Assembly (NCBI GenBank): GCA_018268435.1
Contig: JAFDWP010000108.1
Location: 1 to 40,502, forward strand
From: Actinomycetota bacterium
GTDB taxonomy: Bacteria; Actinomycetota; Actinomycetes; Actinomycetales; Microbacteriaceae
DNA: 40,502 nt
Direction: 5' to 3'
Both the position numbers and the translations under genes were made by a program. This document shows, piece by piece, positions 14,140-39,652 of this stretch. Position 1 is the first letter of the stretch. The number at the start of each line of letters is the position of its first letter. The notes beneath the pieces are model-generated. The model had not been told where the DNA came from and did no database searches. It saw nothing but the letters and a program-made list of their open reading frames with translations.

Positions 14140-14199
14140 GAGTCGGTATGCCGTGCGCGGGACGCGTGGGCACGAGACACCCCTAGGGAGATGGCATCC

Positions 14200-17001
<2,802 letters not shown>

Positions 17002-33327: not shown

Positions 33328-33495
33328 TTCCGATCGCCCTCTTTCGTCGCTGAAGCGATGGGGTCCGTCCCGGTGGTCTCCGGGTGCGGCCACTCATCCG
33401 GGTGTCAAGCCTAACGTGTCGCGGAGGCATCGCGGGCCCGCGTGGCGCGGTTCCGGGGGGCCCAGATCGCCCGACCGTGCCGGACGCAGGACGGC

Positions 33496-33501
33496 TACCC
33501 T
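33496..33501 (+). promoter_or_regulatory. guaB1 -10 element, leaderless arrangement
   Basis: TACCCT lies exactly six bases before the guaB1 ATG. Confidence 0.55.
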
Positions 33502-33507
33502 GAGAGC

Positions 33508-34971
33508 ATGCAGTTCTCCGGCGAACTCCCCAGGGTCGATCTCACCTACTCCGACGTGTTCCTGGTGCCGCGTCACTCCGATGTCACGAGTCGCCTGCAG
33601 GTCGATCTGGCGCCGCAGGACGGCACCCCCGCGACCATCCCGCTGGTCTCGTCGAACATGAACTCGGTCACCGGTCCGCGGCTCGCCGCGACGCTCGCGC
33701 GCCGGGGCGGGATCGGCGTGCTGCCGCAGGACATGCCGTTGCAGGAGCTGGACGAGGCCATCCGCTGGGTCAAGCGCCAGCCGGTCGCCTGGGACACCCC
33801 GATCGTGCTCTCCCCGCTCGCGACGGTCGACGACGCGCTGCGTCTCATGCCCGCCACCGCAGGCCACGGCGTCGTCGTCGCCGACGCGCCGGGCGGGCCG
33901 GACGGACTGCACGTCGACGCGATCCACGGGGTCCTCCCCGCCGCGCGCCTCGCGACCGCGCTGCGCGACGCCCAGCTGGGCGACCTGGCGCGCGCCGACA
34001 CGCCGTCCCTGGACGCCGAGGACGTGACGGATCCGCGCGCCGCGTTCGACGCCATCACCGCGGTCGAGGCCGAGATGATCACGGTGCTGCAGCACGGGCG
34101 CCTGGTGGGGACGCAGACCGCCCGCGGCGCGCTGCGCTCCACGCTCTACCGTCCCGCGGTCGACGCGTCCGGACGTCTCGCCGTGGCCGCGGCCGTCGGC
34201 ATCAACGGCGACGTGGCCGCCAAGGCCACCGCGCTCGCGGCGGCCGGCGTGGACGTGCTGGTCGTCGACACCGCCCACGGCCACCAGGAGGGCATGCTGC
34301 GGGCGCTGCGCACGGTGGCGGCGCTGGAGCTCGGGATCCCGATCGTGGCGGGCAACATCGTCACCGCCGACGGCGTTCGCGATCTCGTCGACGCCGGGGC
34401 CTCGATTCTCAAGGTCGGCGTCGGGCCGGGGGCGATGTGCACCACGCGCATGATGACGGCGGTGGGACGCCCGCAGTTCTCCGCGGTGCTGGAGACCGCG
34501 CAGGCGGCCGCCGAGCTCGGCGCGCACGTCTGGGCGGACGGGGGAGTGCGCTACCCGCGCGACGTCGCGCTCGCGCTCGCGGCCGGGGCCGCCTCGGTGA
34601 TGATCGGATCCTGGTTCGCCGGCACGATCGAGGCGCCGGGGGAGCTGCTGACCGACGCCGAGGGCCGCATCTTCAAGGAGTCCTGGGGCATGGCGTCGAC
34701 GAAGGCGGTGCAGGCGCGCTTCGGGCGGCTCGACGCGTACGAGCGGGCGCGCAAGGAGCTGTTCGCCGAGGGGATCTCCTCGTCGAAGATCTACCTGGAC
34801 CCGCTCCGGCCGGGGGTGGAGGACCTGCTGGACATGATCACGTCCGGGGTGCGGTCCTCGTTCACCTACGCGGGCGCCTCCTCGGTGCCGGCGTTCCACG
34901 AGCGCGCCCTGGTCGGTCTGCAGTCCGCGGCCGGCTACGAGGAGGGCAAGGCGCTGCCGGTCAGCTGGTGA
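33508..34971 (+). CDS. guaB1: GuaB1 family IMP dehydrogenase-related protein (probable GMP reductase)
   Basis: This 487-aa IMPDH/GMPR barrel has an inserted CBS pair (about 95-215). Key sites are LVSSNMNSVTG (47-56), the barrel strand LVVDTAHGHQEGM, and the catalytic loop VGVGPGAMCTTRMM with C311. The GuaB1 branch differs from true IMPDH, and its mycobacterial member has been reported to act as a CBS-containing GMP reductase returning GMP to IMP. In M. tuberculosis guaB1 (Rv1843c) is also followed by two CorC-type genes. The ATG at 33508 matches the family N-terminus. Confidence 0.94.
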   Translation: MQFSGELPRVDLTYSDVFLVPRHSDVTSRLQVDLAPQDGTPATIPLVSSNMNSVTGPRLAATLARRGGIGVLPQDMPLQELDEAIRWVKRQPVAWDTPIVLSPLATVDDALRLMPATAGHGVVVADAPGGPDGLHVDAIHGVLPAARLATALRDAQLGDLARADTPSLDAEDVTDPRAAFDAITAVEAEMITVLQHGRLVGTQTARGALRSTLYRPAVDASGRLAVAAAVGINGDVAAKATALAAAGVDVLVVDTAHGHQEGMLRALRTVAALELGIPIVAGNIVTADGVRDLVDAGASILKVGVGPGAMCTTRMMTAVGRPQFSAVLETAQAAAELGAHVWADGGVRYPRDVALALAAGAASVMIGSWFAGTIEAPGELLTDAEGRIFKESWGMASTKAVQARFGRLDAYERARKELFAEGISSSKIYLDPLRPGVEDLLDMITSGVRSSFTYAGASSVPAFHERALVGLQSAAGYEEGKALPVSW

Positions 34972-35004
34972 GCCTCGTGCGGCGCGCGGGATGAGCGTCG
35001 CCGC

Positions 35005-35022
35005 GTGCCCTCGGGAGGGCGC
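35005..35022 (+). terminator. hairpin after guaB1
   Basis: GTGCCCT (35005-35011) pairs with AGGGCGC (35016-35022, one G-T wobble) around a 4-nt loop, 34 bp after the guaB1 stop and ahead of the corC promoter. No T tract. Confidence 0.4.
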
Positions 35023-35052
35023 CCGCTCAGCTTCGCCGAGATCGGGTGCCGA

Positions 35053-35058
35053 TAGAAT
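35053..35058 (+). promoter_or_regulatory. -10 element upstream of the leader ORF and corC genes
   Basis: TAGAAT is a strong -10 match. The expected transcription start is near 35065, only about four bases before the leader ORF ATG. The -35 region is poor. Confidence 0.5.
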
Positions 35059-35068
35059 CGTGGGCATC

Positions 35069-35140
35069 ATGGACGACCCTCCCCCTTGCAGTACCTCGCC
35101 CCACAGCCCGCTCTCCGCCTCGGCGGAGGTGACACCGTGA
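35069..35140 (+). CDS. candidate 23-residue leader peptide (MDDPPP...) upstream of corC
   Basis: ATG at 35069 opens 23 codons ending in TGA at 35138-35140. The peptide begins M-D-D-P-P-P-C-S-T-S-P and is Pro/Ser-rich. It would be nearly leaderless from the TAGAAT promoter. Its stop overlaps the corC ATG (TGATG), the usual sign of [13 protein letters not shown] coupling. Two acidic residues followed by three prolines right after the start recall the destabilising Glu-Pro-Asp-Pro start of the MgtL leader of mgtA, a Mg2+ transporter gene. Existence and function are inferred; no expression evidence is available. Confidence 0.45.
   Translation: MDDPPPCSTSPHSPLSASAEVTP
35112..35129 (+). promoter_or_regulatory. 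hairpin sequestering the corC ribosome-binding site
   Basis: CTCCGC (35113-35118) pairs with GCGGAG (35123-35128) around loop ctcg, plus a T-G wobble (35112/35129). The GGAGG ribosome site (35125-35129) is wholly inside the right arm. Ribosomes [11 protein letters not shown] the leader ORF would melt it. Confidence 0.6.
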
Positions 35141-36453
35141 TGGATTACATCTGGTTGGGCGTGGGGCTCCTGCTGATCGTGGGGACGGGACTGTTCGTCG
35201 CCAGCGAGTTCGCCCTGGTCAACCTCGATCGCGCCGATCTGGAGGCGCGCCGGGACCGCGGCGAGAGCCGCCTCGGCATGACCATCGCGGCGCTGAAGAT
35301 CACCTCGACGCATCTGTCGTCGGCGCAGCTGGGCATCACGCTGACCACGCTGCTCACCGGTTTCACGATGGAACCGGCGCTGTCGAACCTGCTCCGCCCG
35401 GTGCTGAGCGGATGGGGGATCCCCGATCCCGTCACCACGACCCTCGCCGTGATCATCGCGATGCTCGTGGCCACGATGCTGTCGATGATCCTCGGCGAGC
35501 TCGTGCCGAAGAACTTCGCGATGGCGCTGCCCGTCGCCACGGCGAAACTCGTGATCCCGTTCCAGACGGTGTTCACGACCGTGTTCCGCCCGATCGTGGC
35601 GCTGCTCAACGGCAGCGCCAACGCCGTGCTGCGCGGGATGGGCATCGAGCCGAAGGAGGAGCTGAGCGGCGCCCGCTCCGCCGAGGAGCTCAGCTCCCTC
35701 GTCCGGCGCTCCGCCAGCGCCGGAGTGCTCGAGGAGGACACCGCCACGCTGCTGGACCGCAGTCTCGGCTTCGCCCGGCTCACCGCGGGCGACGTGATGA
35801 CCCCGCGCCCGAGCATGCACGCGATCGCCGCGGCGGACTCCGCCGACGACGTGATCAGCCTCGCCCGGCGCACCGGGCACAGCCGATTCCCCGTGTACGA
35901 CGAGGACCTCGACGACATCACCGGCGTCGTGCACCTCAAGGCCGCGGTGTCGGTGCCGCGGGAACGCCGCACCGAGGTGCCGGTGGGCGCCCTCGCCTCC
36001 GAGCCGCTGCGGGTGCCCGAGACCGTGCATCTGGACGCTCTCGTGGCGGAGCTGCGCGGCGGCGGCTATCAGCTCGCGATCGTGGTGGACGAGTACGGCG
36101 GGACCGCCGGGATCGTCACCCTCGAGGACCTCGTCGAGGAGATCGTCGGCGAGGTGTCCGATGAGCACGACCGCAGCAGGGCCGGCGTCGTGAAGGGCCG
36201 CGACGGGATCACCTTCCCGGCCGAGCTGCGGCCGGACGAGCTGCGCGCCAGCAGCGGCATCGAGGTGCCGGAGGGCGATGTCTACGACACCGTCGGCGGC
36301 TACGTGATGAGCGTGCTGGAGCGGCTGCCCAGGGCCGGCGACGAGGTGCCCGTGCCCGGCGGCACCCTGCACGTCGTGCGCATGCAGGGCCGCAGGGTGG
36401 ATCGGATCCGCTTCACCGCGGATCCGGACGTCGAGGAAGGGGGCGAGCGATGA
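35140..36453 (+). CDS. CorC/HlyC-CNNM family divalent-cation transport protein 1
   Basis: This 437-aa protein has an N-terminal CNNM/DUF21 membrane domain (about 1-190, [13 protein letters not shown]), a CBS pair (about 205-335: [61 protein letters not shown]) and a C-terminal CorC_HlyC domain. Relatives such as CNNM/CorC and staphylococcal MpfA move Mg2+, probably outward. The ATG at 35140 overlaps the leader ORF stop; a GTG one codon earlier (35137) is an alternative. It is coupled to the next gene by ATGA overlap. An M. tuberculosis pair (Rv1842c-Rv1841c) has the same order after guaB1. Confidence 0.93.
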
Positions 36454-37511
36454 ACGACTGGGCCGGAATCGCGTGGCTGTTCGTGCTGCTCGCCTTCAAC
36501 GCGTTCTTCGTGGGCGCCGAGTTCGCGGTCATCTCCGCACGGCGCTCGCAGATCGAGCCGCTCGCCGAGCGCGGATCCCGGTCCGCGCGCACCGCGCTGT
36601 ACGCGATGGAGCATGCGACGCTCATGCTCGCGACCTCGCAGCTCGGCATCACCGTGTGCTCGCTGCTGATCCTGAACGTCTCCGAGCCGGCGATGCACCA
36701 CCTGCTCGCGGCTCCCCTGGGGGCGCTGGGTCTCGCGGCGGGCGCCGTGGACGCGGTCGCGTTCATCATCACCCTCGTGATCGTGTCGTTCCTGCACGTG
36801 GTGTTCGGCGAGATGGTTCCGAAGAACCTCGCGTTCTCGCTGCCCGACCGGGCCGTGCTGATCCTGGCGACGCCGCTGGTGTGGTTGTCGAAGGTGTTCT
36901 ACCCCGTGATCCGCGCGCTCAACGCCACGGCCAACGGTGTCGTGCGCCTGTTCCGGGTGGAGCCGAAGGACGAGGCCGCCTCGACCTTCACGCTCGACGA
37001 GGTCGCCACCATCGTCGACCAGTCCCGCCGCGAGGGCGTGCTGGACGACGCGGCCGGCACCGTGAGCGCCGTCGTCGAGTTCACCGACAAGGATGCGCGC
37101 GACGTCGCCGTCCCGTTGGCCGGGCTCGTCACGCTGCCGATCGGAGCGACCCCGGACGATGTGGAGCGGGCGGTCGCCAAGCACGGCTTCTCCCGCTACG
37201 TGATCGTCGACGCCGAGGGGGCGCCGATGGGCTACGTGCACCTCAAGGACGTGATCCGCTCCGTGGAGGGGCCGGGTGCGGATGCGCAGGCCGCCGCGCC
37301 GATCCCCGCCAAGCGCATCCACCAGATGGTGCCGATGCAGGAGGACACCGACCTCGAGGACGCCCTGGCGATCATGCGGCGCGCCGGACGGCACCTGGCC
37401 CAGGTGCGCGACGCGGCCGGGGAGACCACGGCGATCCTGTTCCTCGAGGACATCATCGAGGAGCTCGTCGGCGAGGTGCGCGACATCACGCGGCGCGGCT
37501 TCGGGCGCTGA
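36450..37511 (+). CDS. CorC/HlyC-CNNM family protein 2, lacking the C-terminal CorC domain
   Basis: This 353-aa paralogue of the preceding protein has a CNNM/DUF21 membrane domain (FVGAEFAVISARRSQIEPLAE, GEMVPKNLAFSLP) and a CBS pair (about 205-345: FSRYVIVDAEGAPMGYVHLKD, TAILFLEDIIEELVGEV). It stops shortly after the second CBS, without the CorC_HlyC domain. The two proteins probably form a heteromeric transporter (inference from coupling by ATGA overlap and conserved pairing). It converges on the oxidoreductase gene with 15 bp between stops. Confidence 0.92.
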   Translation: MNDWAGIAWLFVLLAFNAFFVGAEFAVISARRSQIEPLAERGSRSARTALYAMEHATLMLATSQLGITVCSLLILNVSEPAMHHLLAAPLGALGLAAGAVDAVAFIITLVIVSFLHVVFGEMVPKNLAFSLPDRAVLILATPLVWLSKVFYPVIRALNATANGVVRLFRVEPKDEAASTFTLDEVATIVDQSRREGVLDDAAGTVSAVVEFTDKDARDVAVPLAGLVTLPIGATPDDVERAVAKHGFSRYVIVDAEGAPMGYVHLKDVIRSVEGPGADAQAAAPIPAKRIHQMVPMQEDTDLEDALAIMRRAGRHLAQVRDAAGETTAILFLEDIIEELVGEVRDITRRGFGR

Positions 37512-37526
37512 CCCGGCCGACCGCGC

Positions 37527-38594
37527 TCAGCGCCAGCGGGCGCGCAGGTACTGGTCGGGCCAGGCGACCTCGTCGCCGAGCTCATGCGCGGCCCGCAGAC
37601 CGAAATGCGGGTCGCGCAGCCATTCCCGGGCGGCGAAGACCGCGTCGGCGGCACCGGCGGTGAGCACGGCCTCGGCCTGCGCGCCGTCGGTGAGCAGCCC
37701 GACGGCGGAGGCACGGATGCGGCCGCCCTGGCGCACCGCCGCGGCGAGCGGCACCTGGTAGCCCGGGTGCACGTCGATGCGCTGATGGGCGACGAGTCCG
37801 CCGCTGGAGACGTCGATGAGATCCGCGCCGTGCGCCACGGACCAGTCCGCGACGAGGGCGGCCTCGTCCGGCGTGAACCCGCCGGGGGCGTGGTCGGTGG
37901 CCGAGATCCGCACGAACACCGGCACGGCCCCGCCGGCCACCCGGCGCACGGCCTCGGTGACCTCCAGCAGCAGGCGGGCGCGGTTCTCGAGCGTTCCGCC
38001 ATAGGCGTCGTCGCGGTGGTTGCTGAGCGGCGACAGGAACTGATGCAGCAGGTATCCGTGCGCGCCGTGGATCTCCAGCACGTCGAAGCCGGCGTCCAGG
38101 GCGCGGCGGGCGGCGGCCGCGAAGCCGGCGACCACGGCGGCGATCCCCGGGCCGTCGAGCGCCGTGGGCGCGGCGAAGCCCTCGAACGCCAGGGCGGACG
38201 GCGCGACCGTCGTCCATCCGCCCTCGGCCGCGGGGACGGATCCGCGATCCGCGGCCCACGGCCACCACGTCGACGCCTTGCGCCCGGCATGCGCGAGCTG
38301 CACGCCGATGTGCGCGCCGCGGGCGTGCGCCGCCGCCACGATCGGCGCCCACGCGTCCCGCTGGGTGTCGTTCCAGAGTCCGGTGTCGCGGGGGCTGATC
38401 CGCCCCTCCGGCAGCACCGCCGTGGCCTCGGCCATGATGAGCCCCGCGCCGCCCGAGGCGAACTGCACGAGGTGGGCGTGGTGCCACTCCTGCGGCACGC
38501 CGTCGACCGCGCTGTACATGCACATCGGGGAGACCCACAGCCGGTTGCGCAGGGTCAGGGAGCGGACGGTCAGGGGGGAGAACAGGAGGCTCAC
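37527..38594 (-). CDS. NADH:flavin oxidoreductase, YqjM-type old yellow enzyme
   Basis: This 355-aa FMN barrel belongs to the thermophilic-like/YqjM class of ene-reductases. It has the regulatory Cys-x-Tyr in VSPMCMYS (C25, Y27), IGVQLAHAGRKAS, the substrate-binding pair H176/H179 in EIHGAHGYLLHQFLSP, NHRDDAYGGTLENR, and a C-terminal Arg-rich end. Such enzymes reduce activated C=C bonds using NAD(P)H; the natural substrate is unknown, and detoxification of electrophiles is likely. The start is GTG at 38592-38594. Confidence 0.95.
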   Translation of the reverse strand: MSLLFSPLTVRSLTLRNRLWVSPMCMYSAVDGVPQEWHHAHLVQFASGGAGLIMAEATAVLPEGRISPRDTGLWNDTQRDAWAPIVAAAHARGAHIGVQLAHAGRKASTWWPWAADRGSVPAAEGGWTTVAPSALAFEGFAAPTALDGPGIAAVVAGFAAAARRALDAGFDVLEIHGAHGYLLHQFLSPLSNHRDDAYGGTLENRARLLLEVTEAVRRVAGGAVPVFVRISATDHAPGGFTPDEAALVADWSVAHGADLIDVSSGGLVAHQRIDVHPGYQVPLAAAVRQGGRIRASAVGLLTDGAQAEAVLTAGAADAVFAAREWLRDPHFGLRAAHELGDEVAWPDQYLRARWR

Positions 38595-38698: not shown

Positions 38699-39652
38699 AT
38701 GCCCTCGTCCCCGCCCCGCCGTGATGCGCACGCCCGCATCCTCTGGACGAGGGACGACGTGCGGCCGCTGCTGCGGGTGCCGGGGCCTGCCGATGACAAG
38801 CGCAGCCGCGGCACCGTCGCCCTGCGCACCGGATCCGAGGCGTATCCGGGTGCCGCGGTGCTCGGGGTCGAGGCCGCGTGGCGCGCGGGCGCGGGCTACG
38901 TGCGCTACGTCGGTCCGCGGCGGCCAGCGGATCTCGTGCTCGCCCGGCGTCCGGAGACGGTCGTGACAGACTCGGCGCACGACGCCGCGGGCGGGCACGC
39001 AGACGCGTGGGTCGTCGGCTCCGGCACCGACCCCGCGCTGCGCACCGCCGAGGAGGCCACGGCGCTGCGGCGCCTGCTCGACGGCACGGCAGCGGTCGTC
39101 GTGGATGCGGGTGCGCTGGACCTGCTTCCCGCCCGCACCCCGGTGATCGCCACGCCGCACACGGGGGAGTTCGCGCGGCTGCGCGCGGTGCTCGGGATGG
39201 CGCCGGTCGACGCCGCGACGCTGCGGGATCCGGCCGCTCGGGCGGCGGCCGTCCTCCGCACCGCGGATGCGCTCGGCGGAACCCTGCTGCTGAAGGGGGC
39301 GACCACGCTCGTCGCGGACCCCGGTGCCGCGCACGCGATCGCGGTCGACGCCGGCACCGGATGGCTCGCGGCCGCGGGCACCGGGGACGTGCTGGCCGGT
39401 GTGATCGGCGCGCTCGTCGCCGCCGACCGTGCGGGCGGGCGGCGCACACCCCTGGCCGAGCTCGCGGCGAGCGCCGCCTGGCTGCACGGCAGCGCCGGGC
39501 GCATCGCCGCCCGCGGCGACGGCGGCGTCGGCCACCCCGTCGTGGCGCTGGACGTCGCCGAGGCGCTGCCCGACGCGTTCGGCCGGGCGCTCGCCGAGGA
39601 CGTCGACCCCGCGGGCCTCGACGACCATCCGATCGAGGAGGAGGACGCGTGA
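38699..39652 (+). CDS. nnrD: ADP-dependent NAD(P)HX dehydratase
   Basis: This 317-aa ribokinase-fold enzyme repairs hydrated NADH and NADPH. It has K-R-S-R-G-T-V-A-L near residue 35, an AAWRAGAGYVRY segment, ATPHTGEFARL, LLKGATTLVADP and the signature AAGTGDVLAGVIGALVAA. In many bacteria it is fused to the NAD(P)HX epimerase NnrE; here the dehydratase stands alone and no epimerase domain is visible. It is coupled to the membrane glycosyltransferase gene by GTGA overlap, a context with no obvious biochemical link. Confidence 0.94.
   Translation: MPSSPPRRDAHARILWTRDDVRPLLRVPGPADDKRSRGTVALRTGSEAYPGAAVLGVEAAWRAGAGYVRYVGPRRPADLVLARRPETVVTDSAHDAAGGHADAWVVGSGTDPALRTAEEATALRRLLDGTAAVVVDAGALDLLPARTPVIATPHTGEFARLRAVLGMAPVDAATLRDPAARAAAVLRTADALGGTLLLKGATTLVADPGAAHAIAVDAGTGWLAAAGTGDVLAGVIGALVAADRAGGRRTPLAELAASAAWLHGSAGRIAARGDGGVGHPVVALDVAEALPDAFGRALAEDVDPAGLDDHPIEEEDA

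Follow-up and report, generated by a model that had tools for sequence, protein, structure and literature searches.

The MgtL leader peptide drops ribosomes at its Glu-Pro-Asp-Pro (EPDP) sequence under low Mg2+, according to passages of PMC11282234, and the upstream open reading frame (uORF) mgtQ requires Asp2 and Glu5 in the part of PMC8092293 that deals with it. Passages of PMC12421838 report that Salmonella corC and mgpA are induced by high Mg2+, that E. coli CorC has an N-terminal destabilising sequence and that a start-to-stop change in YoaL lowers MgpA, and state Mg2+ efflux for CorB homologs of other organisms. Here, we describe a short leader open reading frame (ORF) that begins Met-Asp-Asp-Pro-Pro and ends on the start codon of corC, a gene for a CorC/CNNM-type transporter, in a 40,502-nucleotide stretch of an Actinomycetota genome (the window; contig JAFDWP010000108.1 of GenBank assembly GCA_018268435.1, positions 1 to 40,502, forward strand). 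An earlier reading of the letters of this stretch (the original prediction) had picked out four elements, namely a TAGAAT promoter box, an ORF from the ATG at 35069, a hairpin over the corC GGAGG and a TGATG stop/start overlap, and all four were found at the places it had given them.

Leaders were scored by a strict rule, an ORF that begins M[DE][DEHA]PP and terminates at the start of corC. The nearest loci were picked solely for the similarity of their CorC proteins (the best 80 of 563, of which 79 were used; the match of L082 starts at residue 30, at a locus end, and was left out). Of these, 74 are labelled Microbacterium and five (L006, L007, L013, L066 and L072) only Microbacteriaceae or Actinomycetota; with almost all named nearest relatives carrying that label, the window genome is assigned to Microbacterium. 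The rule held in all 79, against 0 of 3950 shuffled upstream regions, and in 61 of 65 loci from 44 other Microbacteriaceae genera (the 25 best outside the genus and 40 hand-chosen among the matches listed), against 2 of 3250 shuffles. Three of the four failures have altered N-termini (MDDHHH in L148, MDDSSP in L181 and MDDPHH in L182), and in L152 the leader is absent. Because the 65-locus set favours closer relatives, 34 loci with more divergent corC genes, 33 of them from new genera, were added; 38 had been read, but L275 was dropped (contig cut) and the paralogs L309–L311 were left out. The rule was satisfied in total by 155 of 178 assessable Microbacteriaceae loci and 56 of 78 genera, genus tallies being made by hand. 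The ORF and its acidic/proline codons, which the original prediction had expected to recur in relatives, thus do so in each of the three sets.

The only copy of the DNA motif ATGGAYGAYCCNCC in the assembly of the window (3.34 Mb, 95.5% complete) is the one at this leader. Counted regardless of corC adjacency, the motif occurs at least once in each of 149 Microbacterium genomes (the window's own included), against 23 matches in total (hand sum) for the reversed pattern. Twelve non-primary matches were hand-picked among those listed; 11 lie inside frames open for at least 40 codons upstream and look unrelated, and the remaining one is the leader of a paralogous corC gene (L265).

Over codons 2–5 of the 155 passing leaders, departures from the majority base number two at first, one at second and 140 at third positions, while Asp2 is present in 139 of 140 and an acidic residue 3 in 137 of 140 rule-passing leaders; the rule itself requires D/E and PP, so that periodicity and residue counts are partly conditioned by it. 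This does not apply to the 79 nearest loci, all of which pass and which, unfiltered, give 0, 0 and 24. The preponderance of third-position changes in these codons (140 of 143) argues that the leader peptide is under coding selection. Residue 6 is Ser in 78 of the 79 nearest relatives, encoded by both AGY and TCN codons (AGT, TCT, TCG and others). Since the consensus is therefore DDPPS, the emphasis originally laid on polyproline has to be given up: the third proline of the window (CCT, 35084–35086), and with it PPP, is strain-specific. Leaders are 20 to 37 codons long in the nearest set and 14 to 63 in the other genera, with a minimum of 11 in the divergent loci; the tails are unrelated, and what stays constant across genera is that the leader runs up to the corC start and keeps roughly its first six residues.

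Both ends of the leader have a fixed setting. A TAnnnT box precedes its ATG by 9 or 10 nt in 79 of 79 nearest loci and in 59 of 61 leaders from the other Microbacteriaceae genera, and this short distance suggests that the corC mRNA is probably nearly leaderless, with transcription starting at about 35065–35066 as judged from the position of the −10 box. A search of 34700–35500 for a sigma-70 consensus promoter that includes a −35 box found none, so that the promoter assignment rests on the conserved −10 box. At the far end, the leader stop overlaps the corC start in 78 of 79 nearest loci (as TGATG in 74) and in 58 of the 61 leaders.

The corC Shine–Dalgarno (SD) sequence had been said to lie in a 7-bp hairpin (35112–35129). 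The predicted fold of the window, in which CUCCGC pairs with GCGGAG (35113–35118 with 35123–35128) and CGC with GUG beyond a bulged U, is an equivalent register and does enclose the SD; taken by itself, the window hairpin is not exceptional, folding no better than shuffles (z of −0.93 and −1.02). Its support comes from relatives. In 35 Microbacterium-set loci with a 38-base segment from codon 11 to the corC start, 92.4% of cells in the seven-pair stem are paired and the covariation score is 0.358 against 0.197 for shuffles (reached by 0 of 500) and at most 0.187 for slid versions of the stem; relatedness of the sequences inflates such scores. Weaker measures were reached more often, pairs changed on both sides by 12 and further pair types by 51 of 500 shuffles. 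A 31-locus subset gave 93.9% paired cells and a score of 0.253 against 0.143 (0 of 500), with both-side changes reached by 35 of 500. Stems of at least seven and at least six pairs over the SD region occur in 48 and 62 of the 79 loci, against 338 and 684 of 2370 base-shuffled segments, and the SD is less accessible in the Microbacterium set than in shuffled leaders (0.055 versus 0.146, 77 loci; 0.12 versus 0.19, also 77 loci, in a cruder version later replaced), the controls in both tests shuffling single bases. Covariation thus supports the hairpin in Microbacterium; in other genera, its support is weaker. With a stop that overlaps or abuts the downstream start and a putatively sequestered SD, the locus has the geometry of a coupled uORF, and the leader lies, as originally proposed, where ribosomes finishing it would open corC. 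A corC-frame stop within the leader (TGT AGT, CAT AGA) looked suggestive but was set aside, many loci having TGC AGT.

The leader also accompanies corC genes elsewhere. Within Microbacterium genomes, a leader of this type precedes four corC genes of greater divergence (L248–L251), one of which (L251, genome G103) is the best corC match found in its genome; in L248, the MDDPP frame stops early within a C run (MDDPPGS) and a start in the neighbouring frame reaches the corC start. Besides L265, the second corC copies L309–L311 have a leader. The leader is thus linked to corC genes, some paralogs included, and not to this locus alone. In one genome (G188, genus g41; L298/L313, G188:C3:394523-394536), the MDDPPS codons are fused in frame to CorC itself, giving a protein that begins MDDPPSAELLLLIAG; a TAGAAT lies 10 nt ahead of ATGGACGACCCTCCGTCT, which is open straight into CorC. 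In the other g41 genome analysed (G715, L314), the leader is a separate ORF of 12 codons, MDDPPSDRPWTA. Although it comes from a single genome, the fusion indicates that the motif is able to influence CorC synthesis directly and with the sign proposed here, completion of DDPP giving CorC and abortion less of it.

We favour the reading, to which we assign a probability of about one half, that early drop-off or a slow point at DDPP gates CorC synthesis with Mg2+ as the signal. A ribosome would start at the leader ATG of a near-leaderless mRNA and meet Asp-Asp-Pro-Pro at codons 2–5 with its exit tunnel nearly empty, when the complex should be least stable. If it passed, it would run over the SD hairpin, end at TGATG and feed the corC start by coupling, turning CorC on; drop-off or a stall at DDPP would leave the hairpin shut and CorC off. 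Since low Mg2+ promotes drop-off at such sequences, synthesis of the exporter would track Mg2+, falling when it is scarce and rising when it is plentiful. That the leader is used in the cell, that ribosomes abort at DDPP and that Mg2+ is the signal we infer; L31 or EF-P (elongation factor P) status could be the real signal. The observation made in the original prediction is confirmed, and its interpretation is partly supported.

Several results weigh against this reading. The strict rule is satisfied by only 15 of the 34 divergent loci, the failures including such variants as MDDPGHSP, MDDDHPPRS, MGEPPSES, MDDSPHHS, MDPDKHRF, MDTDCFKP and MDASSPRRPSDPPSS. Outside the Microbacteriaceae, among loci hand-chosen from lists, it is satisfied by three of 40 from other families of the same order (all in family f6) and by none of 20 from the rest of the class. 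Ten of 14 further CorC-type genes have no leader, among them the third CorC-type gene of the window's own genome (L003) and second copies in family f6 (L252–L255). The leader has been lost, as judged by eye, in L152 (= L319), L279, L295, L303, L322, L323 and L325, where corC itself starts 6–10 nt past the TAnnnT box, implying a near-leaderless corC mRNA; in genus g12, an MDDPP leader is present in six of ten loci read and absent in four, of which L152 is one. With several lineages having lost it, the leader must be dispensable. The difference in SD accessibility is modest in other genera (0.125 versus 0.154, p = 0.0067, 57 loci) and was not significant there in the cruder, replaced version (p = 0.43, 10 loci). 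The codon bias of the leader, finally, has at least two possible causes, because the leader start is modestly more open with its actual codons than with resampled synonyms (0.618 versus 0.570 in 79 loci, 0.593 versus 0.542 in 58 loci).

A promoter-proximal uORF ending at the corC start is present in 28 of the 40 loci from other families of the order, compared with 44 of 1600 shuffles. The N-terminal sequences are, among others, MDDPPSHMP, MDDPSHKP, MDDHPSS, MDPDSCRP, MDPDSCSPS, MMQPETDPPDEP and MHTELPTEPPDDLDE, and neutral ones such as MSSSPGP also occur. Extension of DDPP to the whole class is not supported, the 20 loci concerned yielding one promoter-proximal uORF against 13 of 800 shuffles. 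A coupled uORF is thus common in the order, with exact DDPP chiefly a feature of the Microbacteriaceae and some members and variants of it in f6.

Some further short ORFs were seen in passing. L206 and L224 (family f10) and L306 have very short leaders, MDPDSCRP, MDPDSCSPS and MDPDKHRFWPVAR, with an acid-Pro-acid order near the EPDP of MgtL. Other families of the class have short ORFs of another theme near the corC start (MKDSDDAGCSS, MDGSSCSTCA and MDGSQST among L228–L231, L233, L234 and L238), and in two more distant class members (L244 and L245), short ORFs that begin with GTG and carry Pro-Asp-(Ser/Pro)-Trp close to their N-terminus lie ahead of corC-like genes, both noted by eye.

The alternative that fares best, although we think it unlikely, is a constitutive throttle: the leader couples corC and DDPP(S/P) slows ribosomes through an EF-P-dependent Asp-Pro-Pro pause, setting CorC at a low level without any sensing of Mg2+. 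Asp-Pro-Pro is a strong EF-P motif, PP is conserved together with rare codons (CCT, AGT, TCT) and the coupling geometry is tight; EF-P effects on mgtA and on polyproline sequences are also known (PMC6460261, PMC11611912). A throttle leaves unexplained, however, both the two acidic residues kept so strictly before PP and the preference for corC genes.

Sensing of Mg2+ through the codons themselves, which we regard as rather improbable, would rely on CC[C/U] at codons 4–5 needing tRNA-Pro with the m1G37 made by Mg2+-dependent TrmD, low Mg2+ causing slowing or frameshifting; an m1G37 model is described for mgtL in passages of PMC6335274. Codon 4 is indeed CC[U/C] in 152 of the 155 leaders, and CCT in 73 of the 79 nearest ones against 2.7% of proline codons in the same 79 corC genes, whereas CCG makes up 61% of proline codons in those genes and 60% in 25 others. 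Codon 5, however, is CCG in 25 of 155, the gain in start accessibility over synonyms may explain part of the bias, and the conservation of Asp-Asp is left unexplained.

Very unlikely, in our view, is an attenuator induced by stalling in the manner of mgtQ, in which a ribosome paused at DDPP would free the corC SD so that pausing raises CorC. Alternative stems are used by mgtQ as described in part of PMC8092293, and the CCUCC of codons 4–5 could pair with GGAGG. Such an anti-SD switch is not supported: the mean pairing exceeds that of synonyms in Microbacterium (0.118 versus 0.074) with p = 0.15 and only 31 of 79 loci above, and in other genera lies significantly below it (0.048 versus 0.095, p = 1.6e-05). 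The one pairing tested, codons 4–5 with the SD region, thus gave no mgtQ-type alternative stem. The distance from DDPP to the SD moreover varies widely with leader length, and the fused MDDPPS-CorC gene has no separate SD to free.

Highly improbable is a DNA operator or RNA–protein site at the transcription start with an incidental ORF; the bases past the ATG are almost frozen within Microbacterium, rare codons included, but across genera variation is nearly all at third positions, which disfavours a pure DNA site, both AGY and TCN codons encode Ser6, and the reading frame remains open as far as corC. The idea that the leader encodes a functional small protein, such as a CorC partner, deserves equally little credence, as the strong conservation of the N-terminal peptide stops at about six residues across genera in products of 11 to 63 residues with unrelated tails, and this N-terminus persists alone as a fusion in one genome.

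The features of the locus are collected in Table 1.

Table 1. Features of the corC leader region in the window.
Feature	Position	Strand	Basis or remark
IMP dehydrogenase-domain gene	33442..34971	+	ORF; Pfam PF00478, E 8.7e-100; true start possibly an internal codon
−10 box TAGAAT	35053..35058	+	Conserved TAnnnT box ahead of leader ATG
Leader ORF, 23 codons, MDDPPPCSTSPHSPLSASAEVTP	35069..35140	+	ATG 35069, stop TGA 35138-35140
Core codons 2–5, GAC GAC CCT CCC (Asp-Asp-Pro-Pro)	35072..35083	+	Conserved; proposed ribosome-destabilising or slow segment
Hairpin enclosing corC Shine–Dalgarno	35109..35131	+	Fold and covariation in relatives
corC Shine–Dalgarno GGAGG	35125..35129	+	Sequence
Leader stop/corC start overlap, TGATG	35138..35142	+	Sequence; same geometry in 74/79 nearest loci
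corC, CNNM-CBS-CorC_HlyC transporter	35140..36453	+	Pfam PF01595, PF00571, PF03471
Second CNNM-CBS gene	36450..37511	+	Start overlaps corC stop (ATGA)

The corC product has the CNNM transmembrane domain (PF01595, E 1.3e-37), the CBS pair (PF00571 in two stretches) and the CorC_HlyC domain (PF03471, E 7.8e-15) of a CorC/CNNM transporter. Its solved relatives include 4hg0, labelled Magnesium and cobalt efflux protein CorC, and 7m1t and 7m1u, labelled Hemolysin, contains CBS domains; the window CorC may export Mg2+. The second CNNM-CBS gene presumably belongs to the same operon. The IMP dehydrogenase-domain gene upstream is one that we take to be guaB1; in L305, corC almost abuts the upstream IMP dehydrogenase-type gene. 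No Rfam element (M-box, mgtE motif and others) matched at gathering score in the window, the only mgtE match being a sub-threshold one of 8.9 bits at 34900–34955. No intrinsic terminator was found in 34700–35500, and the leader ORF is only 72 nt long and continues directly into corC. Beyond the CNNM operon lie a convergent gene of the NADH:flavin oxidoreductase family (37527–38594, minus strand) and, past it, an NAD(P)H-hydrate dehydratase-type gene (38699–39652, plus strand); secA is at 14191–17001 (plus strand), and no tRNA was found in the window.

A broader and more tentative proposal, which we put somewhat short of an even chance, is that a near-leaderless start plus DDPP, coupled or fused to an exporter gene, forms a family-wide sensor of Mg2+ (or of ribosome integrity) that evolved separately as a mirror image of MgtL. 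If this is true, drop-off on an acidic-proline start would not be a peculiarity of enterobacterial importers, but would have an actinobacterial exporter counterpart of opposite sign, for which the loci with a separate leader (11 to 63 codons), those that have lost it and the direct fusion would provide a compact, testable natural series. A control of Mg2+ homeostasis would also become known for actinobacterial CorC/CNNM genes; literature searches found none described for these genes, and full-text searches (titles, abstract beginnings and passages) found no published description of the leader.

Among known systems, the closest in sequence character is MgtL of mgtA (Salmonella and E. coli). The leader described here has acidic and proline residues in its first codons, as an MgtL-type leader does, with DDPP in place of EPDP just past the start codon, and both precede a gene for a Mg2+ transporter; drop-off is described as the Mg2+ sensor of MgtL in passages of PMC11282234. 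The two differ in that mgtA encodes an importer (a P-type ATPase) that drop-off turns on via a Rho-dependent terminator, whereas the present leader precedes a gene of the corC/CNNM exporter type, whose control would be based on coupling and which drop-off should turn off, a sign that would suit an exporter; no sequence homology is claimed. YoaL of mgpA/yoaE (E. coli and Salmonella) likewise overlaps the start of a gene for a CorC-domain protein, and loss of its start lowers the downstream protein in the relevant passages of PMC12421838, as would be expected here, but MgpA has a different architecture of TerC plus CorC domains. According to part of PMC8092293, mgtQ of mgtB (Salmonella) is also a short ORF with early acidic codons and a ribosome-binding site in a stem, where ribosome destabilisation controls the downstream gene; unlike the present leader, it is intergenic, with its own SD, eight codons and alternative stems 1:2 and 2:3, and destabilisation promotes mgtB. 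In E. coli CorC (YbeX), a destabilising sequence has been proposed, in passages of PMC12421838, as a control element of the same sign in a CorC-family gene, and the MDDPPS-CorC fusion of G188 looks alike. Most Microbacteriaceae loci read differ from YbeX in carrying the motif in a separate coupled leader, and the CorC of Salmonella is a cytoplasmic protein that has no domains besides CBS and CorC. Mycobacterial leaderless small ORFs and the Corynebacterium ilvB uORF resemble the leader as short ORFs near the mRNA 5′ end, some of which control the next gene; as far as is known, these uORFs respond to amino acids or have no assigned function. The leader would thus be of a known kind, the acidic-proline destabilising leader of a Mg2+ transporter, and new in its proposed sign, its gene, its probably near-leaderless start and its lineage.

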